Shown: positions 26,952 to 36,133 of the stretch, in pieces
How the letters are laid out: each line of letters starts with the position of its first letter
Position numbering within the stretch: the stretch's first letter is position 1
NCBI RefSeq assembly: GCF_024707545.1
Contig: NZ_CP062229.1
Location: 186,001-250,000, forward strand
Source of the DNA: Mesorhizobium onobrychidis
Lineage (GTDB): Bacteria; Pseudomonadota; Alphaproteobacteria; Rhizobiales; Rhizobiaceae
Reading direction: 5' to 3'
DNA length: 64,000 bases
Translations under genes and position numbers: made by a program
Notes under the pieces: model-generated
What the model was told of the DNA's origin: nothing
What the model saw: only the letters and a program-made list of their open reading frames with translations
Database searches by the model: none

Positions 26952-28301
26952 GTGACTGTCCAGACGCCAGACATTCTGCAGCAAGTTTCATCGGGCGAGG
27001 CTAAGCGGATCGGAAACGTTCAGTTGAAAACAGACATCTTCGAAATCTCCAGCGCCGGCATTGTTAGCAATCGCATGCGGCGGATGCGGCTTTTGATCAC
27101 TTGCCTCGCGCTGGCACTCACCATTCCCCAACTCGCCGCCGCCGATGAGTACCGCCTTGGATCGCAGGACAAGCTGACCGTCCGCGTGGCCGAATGGCAG
27201 ACCGTTGAAGGCACGTTCCGCGACTGGACGGCCGTCAACGGAGAGTACACAGTCGGCCCGGCCGGAACATTGTCCGTGCCGTTCGTCGGCGAGATGCCGG
27301 CATCTGGCAAGACGACATCCGAGATCGCGGCAGCGATCGGCCAGGCGCTCCAGCGCAAGCTCGCCCTGGCGGACCGGCCGGAAGCCTCCGTCGAAATGGC
27401 GCAGTACAGGCCGTTCTACATTTCCGGGGAGGTCCAGACGCCGGGCCAGTATCCTTACGTGCCGGACCTGACCGTGCTGAGGGCGATGAGCATCGCCGGC
27501 GGTGTCCGGCGGAGCCCAGAAGGACAGCGGTACGACCGCGACATGATCAACGCCAAGGGCGATTTTGACGTTCTCCAAGACCAACGGGTCCGACTGATCG
27601 TCAGGCGCGCCCGCATCGAAGCGGAGATCGCGGACAAGCCGACATTCGACGTGCCGAAGGAATTGGCCGACGATCCGAAGCTGGCAAGCATCGTTGCCGA
27701 CGAGATGGCGATCCTGACAGCCGACCAAAAGAAGCTCAAACTGCGCCTTCAGGCGCTCGACGACTTGAAGAAGCTGCTGCAGAGCGAGATCGACTCGTTG
27801 CAGAAAAAGATCGTCAACCAGCAGCGGCAGGTCGACCTGGCAAAAGAACAGCTCAGCGGCATCGGTTCGCTGGCGCAGAAAGGCCTTGTCGTCAACACGC
27901 GGGTTCTGGGTTCGCAACAGACGATCGCCGACCTGGAAGGCCAGATCCTGGATTACGACACGGCCATCCTCACCGCCAAGCAGGCGATCAGCAAAGCCAC
28001 CCAAGATGCCATCGACCTGGAAAACACCCAGAATGCGGGCCTCGCCGCCGACCGGCAACAGGTAGAAGCCGATCTCAGTGCAACGATGCTCAAGATGAAC
28101 ATGCAAACAGGCCTGATGGCCGAAGCCATGTCGGGGAACCCGGCACTGCAACGCTATCGCGACGGCGAAGAGCCGGCAATGACGTTTAGCCTGGTTCGGA
28201 TGGTCGACGGCAAGACCAGCGCAATCACCGCCAGCGAAGACACGCCCGTACTGCCCGGGGATGTGATCAAGGTGAAGCTGGTACCGATGGCTAGCCAATA
28301 G
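26952..28301 (+). CDS. exoF: ExoF: periplasmic polysaccharide export protein
   Basis: Up to 449 residues. A signal peptide MRRMRLLITCLALALTIPQLAAAD begins at residue 42 of this frame (27075), so translation may start at 27075 rather than at GTG 26952. The mature protein opens with YRLGSQDKLTVRVAEWQTVEG and a Poly_export/SLBB region (FYISGEVQTPGQYPYVPDLTVLRAMSIAGGV). A long coiled coil (about residues 230-370; ALDDLKKLLQSEIDSLQKK and onward) follows. That combination of Wza-like N-terminal domain with a coiled coil is typical of ExoF. It works with ExoP and ExoQ in export. Confidence 0.88.
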   Translation: MTVQTPDILQQVSSGEAKRIGNVQLKTDIFEISSAGIVSNRMRRMRLLITCLALALTIPQLAAADEYRLGSQDKLTVRVAEWQTVEGTFRDWTAVNGEYTVGPAGTLSVPFVGEMPASGKTTSEIAAAIGQALQRKLALADRPEASVEMAQYRPFYISGEVQTPGQYPYVPDLTVLRAMSIAGGVRRSPEGQRYDRDMINAKGDFDVLQDQRVRLIVRRARIEAEIADKPTFDVPKELADDPKLASIVADEMAILTADQKKLKLRLQALDDLKKLLQSEIDSLQKKIVNQQRQVDLAKEQLSGIGSLAQKGLVVNTRVLGSQQTIADLEGQILDYDTAILTAKQAISKATQDAIDLENTQNAGLAADRQQVEADLSATMLKMNMQTGLMAEAMSGNPALQRYRDGEEPAMTFSLVRMVDGKTSAITASEDTPVLPGDVIKVKLVPMASQ

Positions 28302-28303
28302 GC

Positions 28304-28450
28304 CTTCGAGCGATCGGCCGATCCGATCACGCCGAACAGATCGACTGGATCGGCGAAGAGTTCGACCCGGACGAGTTCGACCTTGAACTCGCCAACACTG
28401 TGCTCGCCGCCCCGACAAGCCGGCCTACCGCCAACTCGGGACGTGAGTAA
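28304..28450 (+). pseudogene. fragment of a pRiA4b ORF-3-like gene
   Basis: An open frame ending at TAA 28448-28450 encodes SDHAEQIDWIGEEFDPDEF followed by DLELANTVL. This is the C-terminal pattern (W-x-G-x-x-FDP-x-x-FD-x-x-x-x-N-x-x-L) of the plasmid pRiA4b ORF-3 family, often found on mobile elements. The upstream part of such a gene (about 150-190 residues) is missing; exoF ends at 28301. This is therefore a remnant, evidence of past insertion and decay at this site. Identification is by eye. Confidence 0.5.
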
Positions 28451-28509
28451 TTGCAGCGCAAGGAGATGTTGTGCTTTAGTTGCAACTTAAATCCGAGGAG
28501 GACTTTGTC

Positions 28510-29268
28510 GTGCACAGTGAAAGGGACGAAATCGTCAGTCGAGAAAGAGAATTTCACAATCTCAGATTCAGTCAGGAGGAGGATCCAAGAGGAAGCCTGG
28601 ACAAGTGGTATCGAACAATTCGTCACGGCGCTGAACGTCAAGACGAGCAAATAAAACGCCTGTCGAAAAACGCAGACGTGCTCGAGTACGGTTGCTCCGA
28701 TGGCGGGTGGTCCCTGCATTCCCTGCACCTGCCCGATCTTTGCCGATCTCTGACGGGGATCGATATTTCGGATGTAGCAGTGAACAAGGCGAACGAACGG
28801 GCGAGCACGCTTGGAAGCACGAACGCTACATTCCTGGCGATGAATGCGGAAGCCATGTCCTTCGAGGACAACAAGTTCGACCTGGTGTATGGACGCGGGA
28901 TCATCCATCACCTGGACCTGGACCGGTGCTTTTCCGATGTGGTCCGTGTCTTGAAGCCGAACGGCGTGGCGTCCTTCTACGAGCCGATGGGACACAATCC
29001 TCTCCTGAATGCCTTCAGAAGGCGGACACCGCTCATCCGCACCGCCGATGAACATCCTTTGTTAATTTCGGACTTCGCGTTGGCCCGCCGCTATTTCAGC
29101 AATGTCCAGGTGGACTATTTCGGCCTGTGCTCCGTAGGAAGCGCGCTAATGCCACGAAGCATCTCGGAAACCGTCTACACAGTTGGCAAAGCTGTCGATT
29201 CGGTAGTTCTGACGCTTCCCTTCGTGAAGCGGTTCGCATGGTATGCGCTCCTAACCCTTAGGGCCTGA
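28510..29268 (+). CDS. class I SAM-dependent methyltransferase
   Basis: 252 residues from GTG 28510, which has an excellent GAGGAGG ribosome-binding site 8 bases upstream; a TTG 30 bases further up is less likely. ADVLEYGCSDGGWSLHSLHL is motif I (SAM-binding, E/D-x-G-x-x-x-G), GIDISDVAVNKANERAST motif II, FDLVYGRGIIHHLDLDRCFSDVVRVLKPNGVASFYEPM motif III/IV. The C-terminal half lacks further motifs. It may O-methylate a sugar of the EPS, as some rhizobial polymers carry methyl groups, but its target is unknown. It sits between a mobile-gene fragment and an acyltransferase fragment, so it may be a later arrival. Confidence 0.8.
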   Translation: MHSERDEIVSREREFHNLRFSQEEDPRGSLDKWYRTIRHGAERQDEQIKRLSKNADVLEYGCSDGGWSLHSLHLPDLCRSLTGIDISDVAVNKANERASTLGSTNATFLAMNAEAMSFEDNKFDLVYGRGIIHHLDLDRCFSDVVRVLKPNGVASFYEPMGHNPLLNAFRRRTPLIRTADEHPLLISDFALARRYFSNVQVDYFGLCSVGSALMPRSISETVYTVGKAVDSVVLTLPFVKRFAWYALLTLRA

Positions 29269-29573
29269 TCAATAGGTGGCAAGCCCAACTCTGGCGAGGG
29301 TGGAAGGGGCAAGTGCCTCACGCCACCGCTTCAGAAGCTGCCCGGGTGACGATTGTTTGGCCTGAGCGCTGTTAGGCGGCGTCTTCGTACGAAGCTCAAT
29401 AATCTGCCTGGCGTCGAAATCGGGGATCATCGCGTAAGTCCGTGGTCGCCCCCACGAAGCATGGCTGCGGGAAATCCTGCCCGAATAATTCGCGAATTTG
29501 TGGCGTCCCAGGATTACATTTATTTGATACTAATCTTAGCAGGCGAACATCAAGACGATATTTGGCGCTTTGC
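29269..29573. other. intergenic region with acyltransferase remnant
   Basis: 305 bp between the methyltransferase gene and the convergent exoQ gene. Its only recognisable content is the hexapeptide acyltransferase-like fragment at 29410-29499. No terminator hairpin was seen. Confidence 0.4.
29410..29499 (+). pseudogene. C-terminal fragment of a hexapeptide-repeat acyltransferase
   Basis: In one plus-strand frame, VEIGDHRVSPWSPPRSMAAG continues as NPARIIREF. Hexapeptide (LpxA/CysE/NodL-like) transferases end with the same pattern: VxIGD-x-x-V-x-x-x-S-x-V, P-x-S-x-x-AGNPA-[KR]-x-IR. The rest of such a protein (about 150 residues of left-handed beta-helix) is absent, so this is a degraded remnant. 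It may once have acetylated a polymer or Nod-factor-like sugar. Recognised by eye from the AGNPAR-IR motif. Confidence 0.4.
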
Positions 29574-30836
29574 TTAGCCCCTTGCGGTTTCTGGTTCCGC
29601 GAGGTTGGCTGCGGCCCACCGGGGACGGGCGACAGGCACCCTCACCAGCTTGAAGTAGCTGTAGTACAGGAGGAAAGAGCCCATGATATAGGGGTTGAAG
29701 GTATCGATCTCGACGAAGGACCGGATGAACAGAAGCACCATCACGCCGGCAAGAATCACGGACTCGGCTTGCCATGTCCTGAATATCAACGCCGATATAT
29801 GGCCCCACAGCGTGCGTACAATGATCAGCGACATCAGCGTCGCCCCGACATAGCCAAGCTCGACGAGGGCTTCGATATAGGTGTTGTGGAAGTGGAAGCC
29901 GCTTCGGGTCGTGATGTAGAATTCGTTCCAAAGCCGCTCGGCCTCGGCGAAACCCTGCACCCAATAGGCCGCGTAGCCGACGCCGAGGATCGGTGCTTGC
30001 TGCGCCGCATCCCAGCCCTGCTCCCAGAGATAGGTGCGTCCGGTGAGCGTGGAATCCTTTCCGAAGGCGCCAAGGATGAAATCCAGAAGTCCCGCAAAGG
30101 CAACCACGGTGACCACGACCAGCCCGAATGCGCCGACTAGGAAAATCACCCGTCGGTAGCGGAGCGAAAGCTTCTTGGCCATGGTAAGCAGAGCCACCAG
30201 AGCGAGAGCTGCCGGTATCGAAGCCGTCGAGGTGGCGGAATGCGCCATGACCAGCAGATAGGCCGACAGGACGAGGACCGGCGCCATCAGGAAAAGGCTT
30301 GTCCGGCCGCGTCTGAGGAAGACCAGGAAGACAATGCAAAAATAGATGCCGAGCGATGCGACAAAGCCGATCTGGTTTTTGGAGCTGAATGCGCCGACGA
30401 AATTGTACGTCCCGTCGAGCATATCATAGGAATAACCCCCGACCTTCAGCGAATAGAGCAGAACGACAAAAATCCCAATCAGTGAGCCAATCGTCAACGT
30501 TCGGACGCTGACGGTGCGCGCTGCAATGTAGGCGCAGGCGATATGGGAGCAATACTGGATTGCCGTCCTCAACGTGATGCCGGGGGCATCCGACCAGAAC
30601 ACCGAGAGGCAGACGTAGAATGCAAACGCCAGCGGGAGCCACGCGCTGGAGGCATGTCGCAACAGCCGCCGGTAGTCTACCACGATCAGGGGAAGCCAGA
30701 CCGCATAGTAGGCCAGGATCAGTATCTGGCCGAAAACGGAGGAGTAGGAGAACGCCCAAACGGAGATGGCAACAGCAAATGTGCCGTAGACCGTGCTCTT
30801 CTCCGGGTCGACCAACAGAGATTTTGGAATCTTCAT
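29574..30836 (-). CDS. exoQ: ExoQ: EPS repeat-unit polymerase
   Basis: 420 residues from ATG 30836 and about 10-12 hydrophobic segments. The opening EKSTVYGTFAVAISVWAFSYSSVFGQ and the periplasmic-loop region GKDSTLTGRTYLWEQGWDAAQQAPILGVGYAAYWVQGF, then FHFHNTYIEALVELGYVGA, match the O-antigen ligase/polymerase (Wzy_C) family, where the conserved R and H residues handle lipid-linked sugars. In Sinorhizobium ExoQ polymerises repeat units into high-molecular-weight EPS. Upstream in-frame codons to 30893 exist; the ribosome-binding site near 30836 is weak. It is separated from exoF by the methyltransferase and remnants. Confidence 0.88.
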   Translation of the reverse strand: MKIPKSLLVDPEKSTVYGTFAVAISVWAFSYSSVFGQILILAYYAVWLPLIVVDYRRLLRHASSAWLPLAFAFYVCLSVFWSDAPGITLRTAIQYCSHIACAYIAARTVSVRTLTIGSLIGIFVVLLYSLKVGGYSYDMLDGTYNFVGAFSSKNQIGFVASLGIYFCIVFLVFLRRGRTSLFLMAPVLVLSAYLLVMAHSATSTASIPAALALVALLTMAKKLSLRYRRVIFLVGAFGLVVVTVVAFAGLLDFILGAFGKDSTLTGRTYLWEQGWDAAQQAPILGVGYAAYWVQGFAEAERLWNEFYITTRSGFHFHNTYIEALVELGYVGATLMSLIIVRTLWGHISALIFRTWQAESVILAGVMVLLFIRSFVEIDTFNPYIMGSFLLYYSYFKLVRVPVARPRWAAANLAEPETARG

Positions 30837-31294
30837 CTCGGTAGCGAATTCCCGTCCATGCAGTTCAATGCCGATTCGCCGCCGCGCCACCATGCGCGAA
30901 TGCTTCCATTGTGCAGCGCAATATAACCCATCCCCCGCAACCTGTCACCCAAATGAGGCAAAAACAGCCATAAGGTGCCCCCGGGACGGCGGTAAAAGGC
31001 CACGACAGGCCGTGCGGCAAGAACCCGAGCATCTCGGCGCACGGCTGGGCATCGCTGTCGGCGCCGTCAAAAGCCATCGCCGCCGCATTTATGAGAGGCT
31101 CGGCATCACCACCGCGCGGAACTGTTTTTGCAGTTCTTTCAGCACCGGACCGAAAAATAGCAGCCGGCATTCGTTGCATCCGTTGCAATGAATGAGGCCC
31201 TCCGCGTACGCTATCTCGGGGACAACCAGACGATGGCCACACGAACAATTGGCAGGCGCTGGTCGTCCCCAATCTGCTGGGTTGGAGCAAACGG
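30837..31294. other. intergenic region with LuxR-type HTH remnant
   Basis: 458 bp between exoQ and the TIR-like gene. It should hold the exoQ promoter and has a weak match to the exo motif (TTGTGCAGCGCAATA, 30909-30923). The LuxR-type remnant at 31000-31137 lies inside. Nothing else is recognisable. Confidence 0.4.
31000..31137 (+). pseudogene. LuxR-type helix-turn-helix remnant
   Basis: A plus-strand frame reads EHLGARLGIAVGAVKSHRRR then IYERLGITTARN. This is the GerE/LuxR DNA-binding helix pair (x-x-IA-x-x-LGIA-x-x-TVK-x-H-x-x-x-IY-x-KLG). There is no start codon in a sensible place and no complete N-terminal half, and the downstream residues are not conserved. It is therefore a decayed C-terminal fragment of a regulator, just upstream of the TIR-like gene and in the same orientation. 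Confidence 0.5.
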
Positions 31295-32224
31295 ATGGAC
31301 AAACCTCGAATCTTCCTGGGCTCGTCGGGGAAGCAGAAAAAACTGCTGCAGGCGCTGACACGCGGTCTTGAAGACATCGCGCATGTGGAGCCTTGGACGA
31401 CGTCCTTCAATCCGGGAACAACCACCCTGGGGCGCCTCCTCGAGCTTACGCGTGAAGTCGACTTCGCCGCTTTCGTGTTCGCTCAGGACGATTGGACCAG
31501 TGTGAGCCAGCCGGCATCGTCTGCGGCGGCATCCGCTCAAGCTTCTCCCCGAGACAATGTGGTTTTCGAGGCCGGCCTTTTCGGCGGAGTCCTTGGAATG
31601 CGCCGGACGTTCATCCTCCATGCCAATGGCTCCAAGCTTCCAAGCGATCTCCTCGGCCTCACCTCCGTAAGGTATGGCGAGGCAACGACCGGCGCGGAGA
31701 TGAGGGCGATCAACCAAAAGCTTCGGAATGCGATCGAGAACGAAAGTCGCGTCGCCCGCATAGAGGGCTTCTGGTGGCAGTTTTCCCTGACGGAGCGCTC
31801 CGCGAGGGAGCCGTCCGCCGTGAGCCTCTTGCGTATCTCGCGAGGCCGCGATGGTGCGCTGGAGTTGGCCGGCCGCTCATGGCAAGAGAATGGCAGTCTG
31901 TCGGCCAGATACTGGAGCGAGGCGGTAAAGGAGAGAAAGGAGCCTGCCGGCATCTTCTACTTTTGGAATGGAGAACGGCCCTTGGATGCGAACGCGTCGC
32001 AGTTGTACGGGACGGGAGAGATCCGGCTGGAGTCCGCCGATCGCGCATCCGGGTATTTCACGACGCGCGCGGATACGAACCCCGAGGTGAATGCGCGCAC
32101 GTCCGGGGTTTACCTGCGCGCCGATCCGGAAGACTTAAGCATCCTGGACGGACGCGACAATCAGCGGCGCGTGGAGTTGATCGCAGAGCGGCTGAGCCAT
32201 TGGAAGTCGATCAAGAACGTCTGA
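31295..32224 (+). CDS. orphan TIR-like nucleotide-binding protein with C-terminal beta-rich domain
   Basis: 309 residues; ATG 31295 has GGAG 7 bases upstream. Residues 5-130 match the TIR-like family (PF10137 type, as in CBASS/Pycsar effector proteins): RIFLGSSG, VEPWTTSF, VDFAAFVFAQDDWTS, RDNVVFEAGLFGGVLG with the putative NADase Glu92, and LPSDLLG. Residues 155-285 are unlike TIR; they run as short beta strands (FWWQFSL, LLRISRG, LELAGRS, GIFYFWNG, GTGEIRLES, GYFTTRAD, SGVYLRADPED). This pattern resembles the lipocalin-like beta-barrel ligand sensor of Cap15-type effectors. No cyclase gene is near. No signal peptide or membrane helix. Probably an NAD-cleaving abortive-infection effector triggered by a small ligand; that role is inferred. 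Confidence 0.7.
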   Translation: MDKPRIFLGSSGKQKKLLQALTRGLEDIAHVEPWTTSFNPGTTTLGRLLELTREVDFAAFVFAQDDWTSVSQPASSAAASAQASPRDNVVFEAGLFGGVLGMRRTFILHANGSKLPSDLLGLTSVRYGEATTGAEMRAINQKLRNAIENESRVARIEGFWWQFSLTERSAREPSAVSLLRISRGRDGALELAGRSWQENGSLSARYWSEAVKERKEPAGIFYFWNGERPLDANASQLYGTGEIRLESADRASGYFTTRADTNPEVNARTSGVYLRADPEDLSILDGRDNQRRVELIAERLSHWKSIKNV

Positions 32225-32427
32225 ACTGCGCGCATGGGAGTCGCTCGGACGGCCCTGCCGCCTCGCCGCGACCGCAGCCCCAGTATCATATGGAGAGGTA
32301 ACAGCCAGGAGGGGCTTCTCAACCGCCTGCTGCTGGCCCACCACGAAGTTGTTCGGAGGCTCCAGACTCCGGCTTGAACTTCTCTGTCGTTGACTTCACA
32401 TTCGCCGCCGATTGGGAGGACGAGCAC

Positions 32428-33180
32428 ATGACGATGAGTTTTGCGGGACGGTTTGCCGGGCGGTCGGCCGTGATCACCGGTGGCGCGTCGGGAATCGGCC
32501 TGGCCGTCGCGCAAAGAATCGCTGAGGAGGGCGGGCGCGTTTGCGTCTGGGATCGTGACCCCGTCCAAATCGAGCAGGCGAAGGCTGTCATTGCCGACCT
32601 GCACAGCGTGACAGTCGACGTCGCCGATCCCTTAGCGGTCGAACAGGCCGCCCAGCAGACATTCGATACCCTTGGCGCCGTCGATATACTGGTCACCAGT
32701 GCGGCCATCACCGGACCGAACACGACGACCTGGGACTATTCGGTGGAGGATTGGCGCCGGGTCATCGACATCAACATCAATGGCGTCTTCTACTGCAACA
32801 AGGCACTGGTTCCGCACATGCTCAAGCGCAATTACGGCAGGATCGTTAACATCGCTTCGATCGCCGGCAAGGAGGGAAACCCGAATGCATCTGCCTACAG
32901 CACCTCCAAGGCGGCGGTGATCGGCCTGACCAAGTCGCTGGGCAAGGAATTGGCCAAGACCAAGGTGACGGTGAACTGTGTCACGCCGGCGGCCGTGCGC
33001 ACCGCGATCTTCCAGCAGATGAGCCAGCAGCACATCGATTTCATGCTGTCGAAGATACCGATGGCGCGGTTCGGCGAGGTCGAGGAGGTGGCGGCGCTGA
33101 TCTCGTGGATCGCTTCCGAGGAATGCTCTTTCACGACGGCTGCCGTTTTCGACGTTTCCGGCGGCCGGGCGACCTATTGA
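32428..33180 (+). CDS. SDR-family oxidoreductase
   Basis: 250 residues from ATG 32428 (GGGAGGAC ribosome-binding site); an extension of 18 residues upstream is rejected. Classical short-chain dehydrogenase: AVITGGASGIGLAVAQRIAEE (cofactor-binding G-x3-GxG), LVTSAAI (N-x-A-G-like), VNIASIAG with the catalytic serine, and YSTSKAAVIGLTKSLG with Tyr and Lys. WDRDP after the second strand suggests NAD rather than NADP. It is followed 38 bp later by the glucoamylase-like gene in the same direction. Substrate unknown; a sugar or 3-oxoacyl substrate is possible. Confidence 0.83.
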   Translation: MTMSFAGRFAGRSAVITGGASGIGLAVAQRIAEEGGRVCVWDRDPVQIEQAKAVIADLHSVTVDVADPLAVEQAAQQTFDTLGAVDILVTSAAITGPNTTTWDYSVEDWRRVIDININGVFYCNKALVPHMLKRNYGRIVNIASIAGKEGNPNASAYSTSKAAVIGLTKSLGKELAKTKVTVNCVTPAAVRTAIFQQMSQQHIDFMLSKIPMARFGEVEEVAALISWIASEECSFTTAAVFDVSGGRATY

Positions 33181-33218
33181 AGCAACTGGGGCGCGATCCA
33201 GACTGGAGTTAACGTCGC

Positions 33219-34562
33219 TTGCTTAGGGTCGAACCCCCACTATCCGACGAAGATCTGCTCGACCGCTTCCAGTGCGCGGCCTTCGGCTATTTTCTGGAAA
33301 CCATGAATCCCGAGAACGGGCTGGTCGCCGACACCTCGCGGCCAAATTGGCCGGCAAGCATCGCGGTCGTCGGCTTCGCCCTGTCCTGCTATCCGGTCGG
33401 GGTCGAGCGCGGCTGGATGACGCGAGACACAGCCGCGAAGCTGACGCTTGCCGCACTGCGCTTCTTCTGGAACAGCCGGCAAGGCAATGGCGACAACGTC
33501 ACCGGGCACAAAGGCTTCTATTACCATTTCCTCGACATGCAGACCGGCCTGCGCGCCTGGCGATGCGAATTGTCGATGGTGGACACTGCGCTTTTGATGG
33601 CCGGCGTGCTCGTGGCTGGCGCCTATTTCACGGGCGACAATGACGAAGAAACCGAAATCCGCGAGCTCGCGGAAGTGCTCTACCGGCGCGTCGACTGGCG
33701 ATGGGCGCAAGGCAGCAATTCGACCTTGCGGCAGGGCTGGAGGCCGAAGAGCGGCTTTCTGCGTTATGGCTGGGAAGGCTACAACGAAGCGACGATGCTC
33801 TACGTTCTGGCGATGGCCGCCCCGGACAAGCCAGCCTCGGACGACAGCTATGCCGGCTGGACGGCGACATATCAGTGGGAAAACATCTACGGCTACGACG
33901 TGCTCTATGGCGGCCCGCTGTTCATGCATCAGTTCTCGCATGCCTGGATTGACTTCGACGGCATCCGGGATGCGTTCATGCGGGAGAAGAACTCGGACTA
34001 TTTCGAAAACAGCCGCCGCGCGACCTACCTTCACCGGGACTATGCGCGGCACAACCCCTCTGGCTACGACGGCTACGGCGAAGGACTTTGGGGCCTTTCG
34101 GCGGGTGACGGACCCGGCAACTTCCGCGCGCAGATCGAGCGGCGACCGCGCAAATTTTCCGGCTACGCGGCGCGCGGCGCGCCGTTCGGCCCCGACGACG
34201 GAACGATAGCGCCGTGGTCGTATCTCGCATCGCTGCCCTTCGCGCCGGAAATCTGCCTGCCGGCGCTGCGCCATCTCAGAGAACGCCACCCTGAGGTGAT
34301 CGACAGTTTCAGGATGCCGAGCGGCTTCAACCCGACGCTGGCGAACCGGCGGAAGTTCGGGCCGAGCGGCTGGATATCGGATGCGCATTACGGACTGGAC
34401 CAGGGCATTGTCGTGCTGATGATCGAAAACCACCGCTCGCGCCTGATCTGGGACCTGATGCGGTCGAGCCCGCATATCCGTCGCGGCCTGTGCAAGGCTG
34501 GATTCAGCGGCGGCTGGCTGTCGCAGCCGGCGAGCCTCCTCCCAAGGACAAGTGCTGAATGA
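33219..34562 (+). CDS. glucoamylase-family (PF10091-type) beta-glucan hydrolase-like protein
   Basis: 447 residues from TTG 33219 with GGAG upstream. The protein matches the glycoamylase domain found in the C-terminal part of cyclic beta-1,2-glucan synthases and in GH144 endo-beta-1,2-glucanases: LVADTSRPNWPASIAVVGFAL, FYYHFLDMQTGLRAW, ELSMVDTALLMAGVL, GWEGYNEATMLYVLAMA, GGPLFMHQFSHAWIDFDG, GYDGYGEGLWGLSAGDGP and DDGTIAPWSYLASLPF. The acidic and aromatic residues of these loops line the active site in the family. No signal peptide is seen, so it would act in the cytosol unless the true start is upstream. Likely substrate is a beta-glucan. Confidence 0.8.
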   Translation: MLRVEPPLSDEDLLDRFQCAAFGYFLETMNPENGLVADTSRPNWPASIAVVGFALSCYPVGVERGWMTRDTAAKLTLAALRFFWNSRQGNGDNVTGHKGFYYHFLDMQTGLRAWRCELSMVDTALLMAGVLVAGAYFTGDNDEETEIRELAEVLYRRVDWRWAQGSNSTLRQGWRPKSGFLRYGWEGYNEATMLYVLAMAAPDKPASDDSYAGWTATYQWENIYGYDVLYGGPLFMHQFSHAWIDFDGIRDAFMREKNSDYFENSRRATYLHRDYARHNPSGYDGYGEGLWGLSAGDGPGNFRAQIERRPRKFSGYAARGAPFGPDDGTIAPWSYLASLPFAPEICLPALRHLRERHPEVIDSFRMPSGFNPTLANRRKFGPSGWISDAHYGLDQGIVVLMIENHRSRLIWDLMRSSPHIRRGLCKAGFSGGWLSQPASLLPRTSAE

Positions 34563-34693
34563 CGGCTACTGCCCAGCTGTCGCTGTCGTGTCGGGCACGA
34601 AGATGTTCGCCCTTCCCAGCAACTCGCGCTTGCTAGGAGGGGCGTCATCGGCCGGCTCGCATGTTCATCTGGCTTGGCAAGTCACCGATTTGA

Positions 34694-36133
34694 TTAGCCG
34701 GCGAACGTATAAGCGGTCTTCACCGTGGTGTAGAATTCCGCCGCGTAGCGGCCTTGCTCGCGCGGGCCGTAGCTCGATCCCTTGCGTCCGCCGAAAGGCA
34801 CATGGAAGTCGACGCCCGCCGTCGGCAGATTGACCATCACCATGCCGGCCTCCGAGTTGCGCTTGAAATGCGTGGCGTGCTTGAGGCTCGACGTACAGAT
34901 GCCCGACGTCAGCCCGAAAGGCGTGTCGTTGGCCACCGCCAGCGCCTCGTCATAGTCCTTGACGCGGATGACGTTGGCGACCGGGCCGAAGATCTCCTCG
35001 CGTGAGATGCGCATGGCGTTGGTGGCTTGCGTAAACAGCGCCGGCTGCAGGTAGAAGCCGAGGGTTTCGCGATCGAGCCGCTCGCCGCCGAAAGCGAGAT
35101 CGGCGCCCTCCTGGCGGCCGATGGCGATATAGTCTTCGTCCTGCTTCAGCTGGCTCTGGTCGACGACGGGTCCGATCTGGGTTTTGGTATCGAGCGCGTC
35201 GCCGACGACCAGCTTGCCCAGGCGATCCTTCATCGCGTCGACGAAACGGTCATGGATGCCGTCCGTCACCACCAGGCGGGACGATGCCGTGCAGCGCTGG
35301 CCGGTCGAGAAATATGCGCCGTTGACCGCGCAGTCGACGGCGACGGCAAGATCCGCATCGTCGAGCACGACAAGCGGGTTCTTGCCGCCCATTTCGAGCT
35401 GGAACTTGCGCATGTGCTCGACGCTGGCGGCAGCGACGCGCTTGCCGGTGCCGACCGAGCCGGTGAAGGTGATGGCGTTGAGATCAGGGCTGTCGAGCAT
35501 GGCCTGGCCGACCACAGAACCCTTGCCCATCACGAGATTGAGCACACCCTTAGGCAGACCGGCGCGGTGCAATATATCGACAATGGTCCAGGCGCTCTCC
35601 GGAACCAGCTCGGCCGGTTTGAAGACAATGGTGTTGCCATAGGCCAGGGCAGGAGCGATTTTCCACGCCGGGATGGCGATCGGGAAATTCCACGGCGTTA
35701 TGATGCCGACGACGCCGACCGCCTCCCGCGTGATCTCGACACCGACGCCGGGCCGCACACTCGGAACCAGCTCGCCAGACAGGCGCAGCGTCTCACCAGC
35801 GAAGAAATCGAAGATCTGGGCGGCCCGCACGGTCTCGCCGATGCCCTCGACCAGCGTCTTGCCTTCCTCGCGCGCCAACGCCCGGCCGATTTCATCTTTC
35901 CGCGCTGTGATCTCGTCCGACGCCTTCCTCAGCACCGCATGGCGTGCCAGCAGGCCCGATCGGGACCATGACGGAAATGCCGCTTTCGCCGCCGCGATGG
36001 CCTGCCGGGCCTGCTCGGCGCCCCCCGACGCATATTCGCCGACCACGTCGTCGAGATTGGACGGGTTGATGTTGCGGGAGCCGGCATCGCCCACCCACTC
36101 GCCATCGATGAGGTTCTTTCGAAACGGGATCAT
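34694..36133 (-). CDS. NAD(P)-dependent aldehyde dehydrogenase
   Basis: 479 residues from ATG 36133 with AAGGA upstream; codons up to 36265 are not part of the gene. TPWNFPIAIPAWKIAPALAYGNTIVFKPAE is the ALDH cofactor region, FTGSVGTGKRVA the NAD loop, QLEMGGKNPLVV holds the general base Glu247, and FSTGQRCTASSRLVV the catalytic Cys281. EEIFGPVANVIRV and FGLTSGICTSSLKHA are C-terminal family motifs. Looks closest to 2,5-dioxovalerate or succinate semialdehyde dehydrogenases, but the substrate is not certain. It faces the 2-hydroxyacid dehydrogenase gene across about 265 bp. Confidence 0.87.
   Translation of the reverse strand: MIPFRKNLIDGEWVGDAGSRNINPSNLDDVVGEYASGGAEQARQAIAAAKAAFPSWSRSGLLARHAVLRKASDEITARKDEIGRALAREEGKTLVEGIGETVRAAQIFDFFAGETLRLSGELVPSVRPGVGVEITREAVGVVGIITPWNFPIAIPAWKIAPALAYGNTIVFKPAELVPESAWTIVDILHRAGLPKGVLNLVMGKGSVVGQAMLDSPDLNAITFTGSVGTGKRVAAASVEHMRKFQLEMGGKNPLVVLDDADLAVAVDCAVNGAYFSTGQRCTASSRLVVTDGIHDRFVDAMKDRLGKLVVGDALDTKTQIGPVVDQSQLKQDEDYIAIGRQEGADLAFGGERLDRETLGFYLQPALFTQATNAMRISREEIFGPVANVIRVKDYDEALAVANDTPFGLTSGICTSSLKHATHFKRNSEAGMVMVNLPTAGVDFHVPFGGRKGSSYGPREQGRYAAEFYTTVKTAYTFAG

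Follow-up and report, generated by a model that had tools for sequence, protein, structure and literature searches.

A TIR-domain protein with a predicted Cap15-like barrel in an exopolysaccharide locus of Mesorhizobium onobrychidis

We analyzed a stretch of 64,000 nucleotides from Mesorhizobium onobrychidis (contig NZ_CP062229.1, positions 186,001 to 250,000; hereafter the window), and in it a gene, termed here the TIR-barrel gene, that lies in an exopolysaccharide locus. Its product couples an N-terminal TIR domain, a putative NADase (NAD, nicotinamide adenine dinucleotide), to a C-terminal region predicted to fold as a barrel of the Cap15 type. We propose that it is a one-protein sensor-effector, in which the barrel would sense a ligand and the TIR domain would cleave NAD+, most likely against phage spread; we consider the chances of this reading to be evenly balanced.

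Results

Domains of the TIR-barrel protein

The N-terminal part matches PF10137 with 79.6 bits, where the family's cut-off is 24.7, and this is the sole Pfam family in the 309-residue protein (Table 1). An earlier, sequence-only reading had proposed a TIR-like domain of this family with a putative NADase residue, Glu92, in the segment RDNVVFEAGLF. This proposal held: Glu92 aligns with ElSTING E86, which is catalytic, and W34 and F38 align with W34 and F39, the BB-loop residues of that protein believed to bind NAD (PMC12421889; papers are cited by PMC number and from the available parts of their text). Judged by these residues, the TIR domain looks enzymatically complete and is probably an NADase. 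A sequence search of the PDB found matches to 7un8 and 9lmq (Cap12/TIR-STING) and to 8jsj (PycTIR), all in the TIR part only, those to the TIR-STING chains stopping at residues 128 and 143; PADLOC effector models and the NCBIfam Cap12 models also cover this part alone, up to residues 156 and 149, respectively. The TIR assignment rests on homology, because the full-length AlphaFold2 model predicts this part poorly (blocks with a predicted local distance difference test score, pLDDT, of 36-67 in residues 31-130). The top Foldseek match of that model is likewise TIR-STING.

The remainder of the protein had been read as a run of short beta strands resembling the Cap15 sensor, and structure prediction agrees with this. 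Modelled alone, the beta-rich region gave a pLDDT of 89.1 and a predicted template modelling score of 0.85, with eight strands followed by helices up to residue 307; designed barrels aside, the best structural match of the predicted barrel was a Cap15-type barrel. On this model the fold of a Cap15-type sensor barrel is present. STING does not appear in the list of structural matches of the barrel, an absence that carries no weight. Invariant W, R and T residues, among them W160/W161, R183, W196, W224, R228, R250, T257 and T269, occur throughout the barrel strands of the 48 full-length homologues described below, and in a post hoc count a strand-1 [ILVM]xGxW motif together with a late motif like GxYxTxR..TxG was found in 40 of 44 homologues versus 7 of 12 Cap15 sequences.

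Descent of the barrel from Cap15 is unsupported at the sequence level. PF18153 matched none of the 44 homologues; hhalign of the barrel against Cap15 (L099 and L102 left out of the Cap15 alignment) returned a probability of only 1.5%, and its score was reached with permuted columns in 1, 2, 15 and 2 of 60 cases under four settings. Pfam yielded only weak matches on the barrel of the 44 homologues (DUF7167 in four, SSXRD in one), and a PDB sequence search with the barrel profile yielded one match, with E 1.6. The two N-terminal transmembrane helices of Cap15 were not found, the top 19-residue Kyte-Doolittle mean being 1.16 versus 1.79-2.65 in the 12 Cap15 sequences, and the TIR domain occupies their position.

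The TIR-barrel gene is maintained under strong purifying selection, its frame staying open beside a decayed LuxR gene. The median ratio of non-synonymous to synonymous substitution rates (dN/dS) over 13 Mesorhizobium orthologues is 0.077, and by halves it is 0.054 for the TIR part and 0.102 for the barrel. Both flanking genes have higher ratios (Wzy, 0.230; short-chain dehydrogenase, SDR, 0.155), while an aldehyde dehydrogenase gene is close to the TIR-barrel gene (0.073) and a sugar transferase gene is below it (0.055).

Table 1. Features of the TIR-barrel gene and its surroundings (positions in the window)
Feature	Residues	Positions	Strand	Basis or remark
TIR-barrel gene		31295..32224	+	309 codons and stop; intact open reading frame; 48 uninterrupted full-length homologues of 301-311 residues
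TIR domain, PF10137 (Cap12/PycTIR type)	5-127	31307..31675	+	Pfam E 2.5e-22; best Foldseek match in PDB, TIR-STING 9lmq
BB-loop residues, putatively NAD-binding (= ElSTING W34, F39)	W34, F38	31394..31408	+	9lmq alignment; invariant in 48/48
Putative catalytic Glu, codon GAG (= ElSTING E86)	Glu92	31568..31570	+	9lmq alignment; invariant in 48/48
Linking helix	133-154	31691..31756	+	AlphaFold2 model
Eight-stranded Cap15-like beta barrel, putative ligand sensor	158-275	31766..32119	+	Predicted structure
G253-x-[FW]-x-T257 ... T269-x-G271, resembling the Cap15 motif GxYxTxRxTxG	253-271	32051..32107	+	Alignments, post hoc pattern count, invariance
C-terminal helices	278-307	32126..32215	+	AlphaFold2 model
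Wzy_C polymerase/ligase of the exopolysaccharide locus, left flank (context)		29574..30893	-	Family search
Segment missing at the otherwise matching site of L103, from a Mesorhizobium without the gene		30970..32278	.	130 bases replace 1309
LuxR-type regulator relic, C-terminal part, two frames		31030..31157	+	Directly upstream of the TIR-barrel gene
SDR, right flank (context)		32374..33180	+	Family search

A GGAG at 31284-31287 precedes the ATG, which follows 7 bases further on. The terminator scan found no terminator, and the promoter scan found one promoter-like site, on the minus strand; there was no Rfam match in 28000-35000 at gathering thresholds. The gene is present as a single copy (G000:C1:217295-218221) in the 7.5 Mb genome.

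Distribution of homologues

Our genome scan identified 51 loci, 48 of which encode uninterrupted full-length homologues, with an identity of 67-99% that extends over both domains; L047 and L049, with disrupted frames, and L051, at a contig end, were excluded from the full-length counts. With 48 such homologues, the fusion of TIR and barrel is far beyond chance. The closest named relative in the scan is Mesorhizobium temperatum (99% identity). Homologues span six phyla, and several of the loci are contigs of metagenome-assembled genomes (MAGs), the labels of which may be wrong. The carriers are Mesorhizobium and its relatives, Xanthomonadaceae and Phenylobacterium, together with members of Actinomycetota (Nocardioides, Aeromicrobium, Arthrobacter, Thermoleophilia), Chloroflexota, Acidobacteriota, Gemmatimonadota and Myxococcota. 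The tree of homologues mostly follows the phyla, except that Arthrobacter oryzae pairs with Mesorhizobium alhagi (support 100/98), which suggests that the gene moved between phyla.

Among 199 related genomes a full-length copy occurs in 14 (the window's own counted), all within the genus. A search of 398 genomes of the phylum for the barrel gave three copies, the window's own included, and all three are fused to TIR; a fourth match (36 positions, E 0.004) was discarded, as its frame looks by eye like an ABC transporter. None of 50,697 phage records matched the TIR-barrel protein, and the 13 plasmid matches ended by residue 173 and the three IMG/VR matches by residue 147. One more of the 199 genomes has a Mesorhizobium copy (L066, G101:C1:3593488-3593937) in which an in-frame internal deletion joins residues 1-94 to about 251-309. 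Other TIR relatives, 30-47% identical, have different architectures as judged by eye.

Genes next to the homologues

For loci outside Mesorhizobium we assembled 116 script-called neighbour genes of at least 60 residues, within two places of the homologue in 30 loci (L018, L019, L021, L050 and the 2030-residue gene L024:9312-15401 excluded). They hold 111 Pfam families. Outside Mesorhizobium no gene cluster accompanies most of the copies, the commonest cluster, that of the AhpD family (CMD), being present in nine loci. PADLOC models of the CD-NTase (cGAS/DncV-like nucleotidyltransferase) matched none of the 116 neighbours, and neither these nor the PycC models matched any of the eight neighbours scanned in the window, as expected from the sequence-only reading, which had noted no CD-NTase or cyclase gene nearby. 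PycC models matched one of the 116 (L031). A mCpol match was found anywhere in the genome in none of 14 carriers, nor did any of them have DAC, the cyclic di-AMP synthase. By contrast, 8 of 12 Cap15 regions taken from plasmids carry the annotation of a nucleotidyltransferase, cyclase or mCpol gene.

PADLOC models of 19 families matched the 116 neighbours, 17 of them falling on three proteins, which are MADS-like (L049), class III cyclase-like (L031) and RecD-like (L034); the two others are PDC-S07 and HTH_VI. No defence island is evident, because each of the 19 matched a single neighbour protein. The MADS-like protein (L049:4310-6661, 784 residues, mad3 and mad8 matches) adjoins a frame-disrupted homologue. 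Phosphoketolase and acetate kinase genes lie beside or near three copies in MAGs of three phyla (L016:8934-12355, L029, L040:4511-7978).

The Mesorhizobium locus

The families of the window's locus include sugar transferase, Poly_export and Wzy_C, so its earlier description as an exopolysaccharide locus stands. Over the 17 main Mesorhizobium loci (window counted) a Wzy_C gene is present in the region in all and an SDR gene in 16, in varying order. Of the exopolysaccharide clusters checked, only SDR (L019, L030, L037) and methyltransferase (L018) recur outside Mesorhizobium. The possibility that homologues always stand beside exopolysaccharide genes, raised with the sequence-only reading as an argument against defence, did not materialize: in the neighbourhood survey this setting is confined to Mesorhizobium. 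We rejected a link of the TIR-barrel gene to exopolysaccharide, since the region is common to the 17 Mesorhizobium loci and the clusters mostly have no members elsewhere.

Both flanks are found without the TIR-barrel gene in 4 of 14 non-carriers of the genus, which are a selection from the listed non-matching genomes. The LuxR gene is intact (259-260 residues) in L008, L009, L012, L013 and L014, with a GerE domain in L008, and decayed in at least seven Mesorhizobium loci besides the window. The idea that the gene sits among decayed genes typical of a defence hotspot was not upheld: a single relic, that of the LuxR regulator, was seen (no window-wide search for further relics was made), and the eight scanned neighbours are polysaccharide and metabolic genes of an ordinary kind. 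One of these eight, a methyltransferase at 28480-29268, matches PADLOC mad2 (E 4.6e-17) in the methyltransferase region only, and we read this match as generic.

A gene with a Prim-Pol domain, followed by two genes resembling glycosyltransferases by eye, stands near the TIR gene in some Mesorhizobium (L007:11438-12085, 216 residues; also L008, L011, L012 and L028). A set of genes that looks by eye like the acetone carboxylase operon (L008:2159-7019; also L009 and L012-L014) lies beside the intact upstream LuxR gene.

Discussion

Possible mechanism

In the proposed one-protein sensor-effector, the C-terminal barrel would bind a small ligand, probably nucleotide-like to judge from the fold. The self-assembly of the protein may then change when the ligand binds or, in the manner of Panoptes, when it is lost; since Cap15 multimerises when its ligand binds and 2TM-beta/OptE when the ligand is lost (PMC12657218, PMC12657230), activation could occur either way. 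The TIR domains would stack head to tail and build composite NADase sites from W34, F38 and E92, by analogy with TIR-STING, in which TIR stacking builds the NADase site (PMC12421889, PMC10419184). Cleavage of NAD+ would halt or kill the cell and most likely stop phage spread. As a precedent, SpbK is a TIR NADase whose trigger is a phage product (PMC12847820). Because no dedicated cyclase was found travelling with the gene, the probable source of the ligand is general host metabolism or the phage.

A role in phage defence is plausible, and we take defence as the first guess and stress-induced arrest as the second. A more specific version is offered tentatively, and we incline against it: the protein might be a cyclase-free relative of CBASS (cyclic-oligonucleotide-based antiphage signalling system) in one polypeptide, the Cap15-type barrel, joined to a TIR NADase, directly reading a general nucleotide signal made by host or phage, portable and partner-free in at least six phyla and possibly working in the Panoptes-like mode of ligand loss.

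Alternative explanations

The neighbours of the homologues bring up an NADase triggered by stress or redox state and not directed against phages, with the barrel reading a metabolite of oxidative or envelope stress and the TIR domain lowering NAD+ and forcing dormancy. Genes for extracytoplasmic function (ECF) sigma factors or AhpD-family (CMD) proteins, detected with purpose-built hidden Markov models, are no more than three genes away in 12 of 34 loci. An ECF gene with a ChrR anti-sigma gene is directly upstream in a Pseudoxanthomonas (L041:6574-7868) and, by cluster, in a second one (L050); SigJ and AhpD genes are upstream in two Nocardioides (L033 and, by cluster, L027); CMD genes are directly downstream in L020, L042, L043, L045 and L046 (four Xanthomonadaceae and another Nocardioides); and in G227, which has three CMD matches, one of them starts 114 bases past the end of the barrel match. 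The strong purifying selection can be counted for this explanation as well. Against it, the excess of these families near versus far from the gene in the same loci (14 of 196 genes versus 8 of 263, p 0.035) fades to 9 of 166 versus 8 of 205 (p 0.33) when five related loci are removed, the choice of families followed a look at the neighbours, and no member of either cluster occurs around the main Mesorhizobium copies (0 of 17 loci). The ECF and AhpD neighbours hint at an oxidative-stress link, which is a lead, and a stress-triggered NADase seems to us unlikely, if the strongest of the alternatives.

Recognition of a phage protein by the second domain, in place of a small molecule, would make the protein a single-gene abortive-infection factor like SpbK. 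Such a factor would suit a lone gene spread over six phyla without a constant partner. Domains that recognise phage proteins are expected to diverge fast; the barrel, with a dN/dS of 0.10, does not. While in SpbK a phage portal protein activates the TIR NADase (PMC12847820), Cap15 barrels are known to form a pocket for cyclic nucleotides (PMC10419184), and invariant W, R and T run through the strands of the barrel here; we regard direct recognition of a phage protein as improbable. Less probable still is that the protein is a CBASS effector and depends on a CD-NTase encoded elsewhere in the same genome. In favour of this, Cap15 barrels of CBASS do read cyclic dinucleotides (PMC10419184), the window's own genome has a SMODS match (E 4.1e-7) at a distance of 1.4 Mb, and above the Pfam cut-off SMODS cyclases occur in 6 of 14 carriers versus 3 of 14 non-carriers. 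Against it, a SMODS match is lacking in 8 of 14 carriers, and the CD-NTase models matched 0 of 116 neighbours. Carriers show no clear excess of SMODS cyclases: neither the difference above the cut-off (p 0.42) nor that over all matches (6 of 14 carriers versus 5 of 14 non-carriers, p 1.0) is significant.

If the one-protein sensor-effector is real, it would add a new sensor to the toolkit of TIR NADases, after the STING, SAVED, CARF and cNMP domains, and would present a Cap15 barrel without the membrane helices. The high conservation of such a lone sensor-NADase across unrelated soil bacteria would imply a signal that needs no dedicated synthase, and the identity of the ligand would show whether nucleotide-triggered cell death has a cyclase-free branch in bacteria.

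Comparison with known systems

In PycTIR, the TIR domain is driven by a nucleotide-sensing cNMP domain placed before it. The TIR part of our protein matches PycTIR (8jsj), which belongs to a system with a cyclase; we rejected membership in Pycsar, as the TIR domain starts at residue 5, leaving no preceding cNMP domain, and no PycC was found among the window neighbours. TIR-SAVED also has a TIR driven by a nucleotide-sensing domain (PMC10419184), but there the sensor is SAVED and the system includes a cyclase. SpbK of Bacillus subtilis likewise combines a TIR NADase with a separate recognition domain; it differs in that the portal protein of a phage is recognised by its N-terminal domain, and the available part of its description does not mention a barrel (PMC12847820).

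A TIR domain fused to a Cap15-like barrel is not named in the titles and abstract openings found in the open-licence literature, to which the novelty of the fusion is limited, nor mentioned in the available parts of PMC11229360 and PMC13142454. The sensor barrel fold, predicted here, and the strand-1 and late motifs are shared with Cap15 of CBASS and OptE/2TM-beta of Panoptes (PF18153). Unlike them, the protein has a TIR effector in place of two membrane helices and no PF18153 match, and no adjacent cyclase or mCpol was found; by contrast, the Cap15-type barrel has been called 'obligately fused' to a two-pass membrane element (PMC12657218). We therefore assigned the protein neither to Cap15/S-2TM-beta (no PF18153, no significant sequence relation, no N-terminal transmembrane helices) nor to Panoptes (mCpol in 0 of 14 carrier genomes).

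Cap12 membership was rejected as well, the NCBIfam Cap12 models falling far short of the equivalog cut-off of 450 with 74.6 and 40.4 bits and reaching residues 149 and 141 only. Compared with Cap12/TIR-STING (SfSTING, 7un8; ElSTING, 9lmq), the sensor is a predicted beta barrel and not STING, and no CD-NTase gene was found; the two share an N-terminal TIR of the PF10137 type with the same catalytic and BB-loop residues, a C-terminal sensor following it, and a similar length (chains of 331 and 312 residues for SfSTING and ElSTING, versus 309 here).
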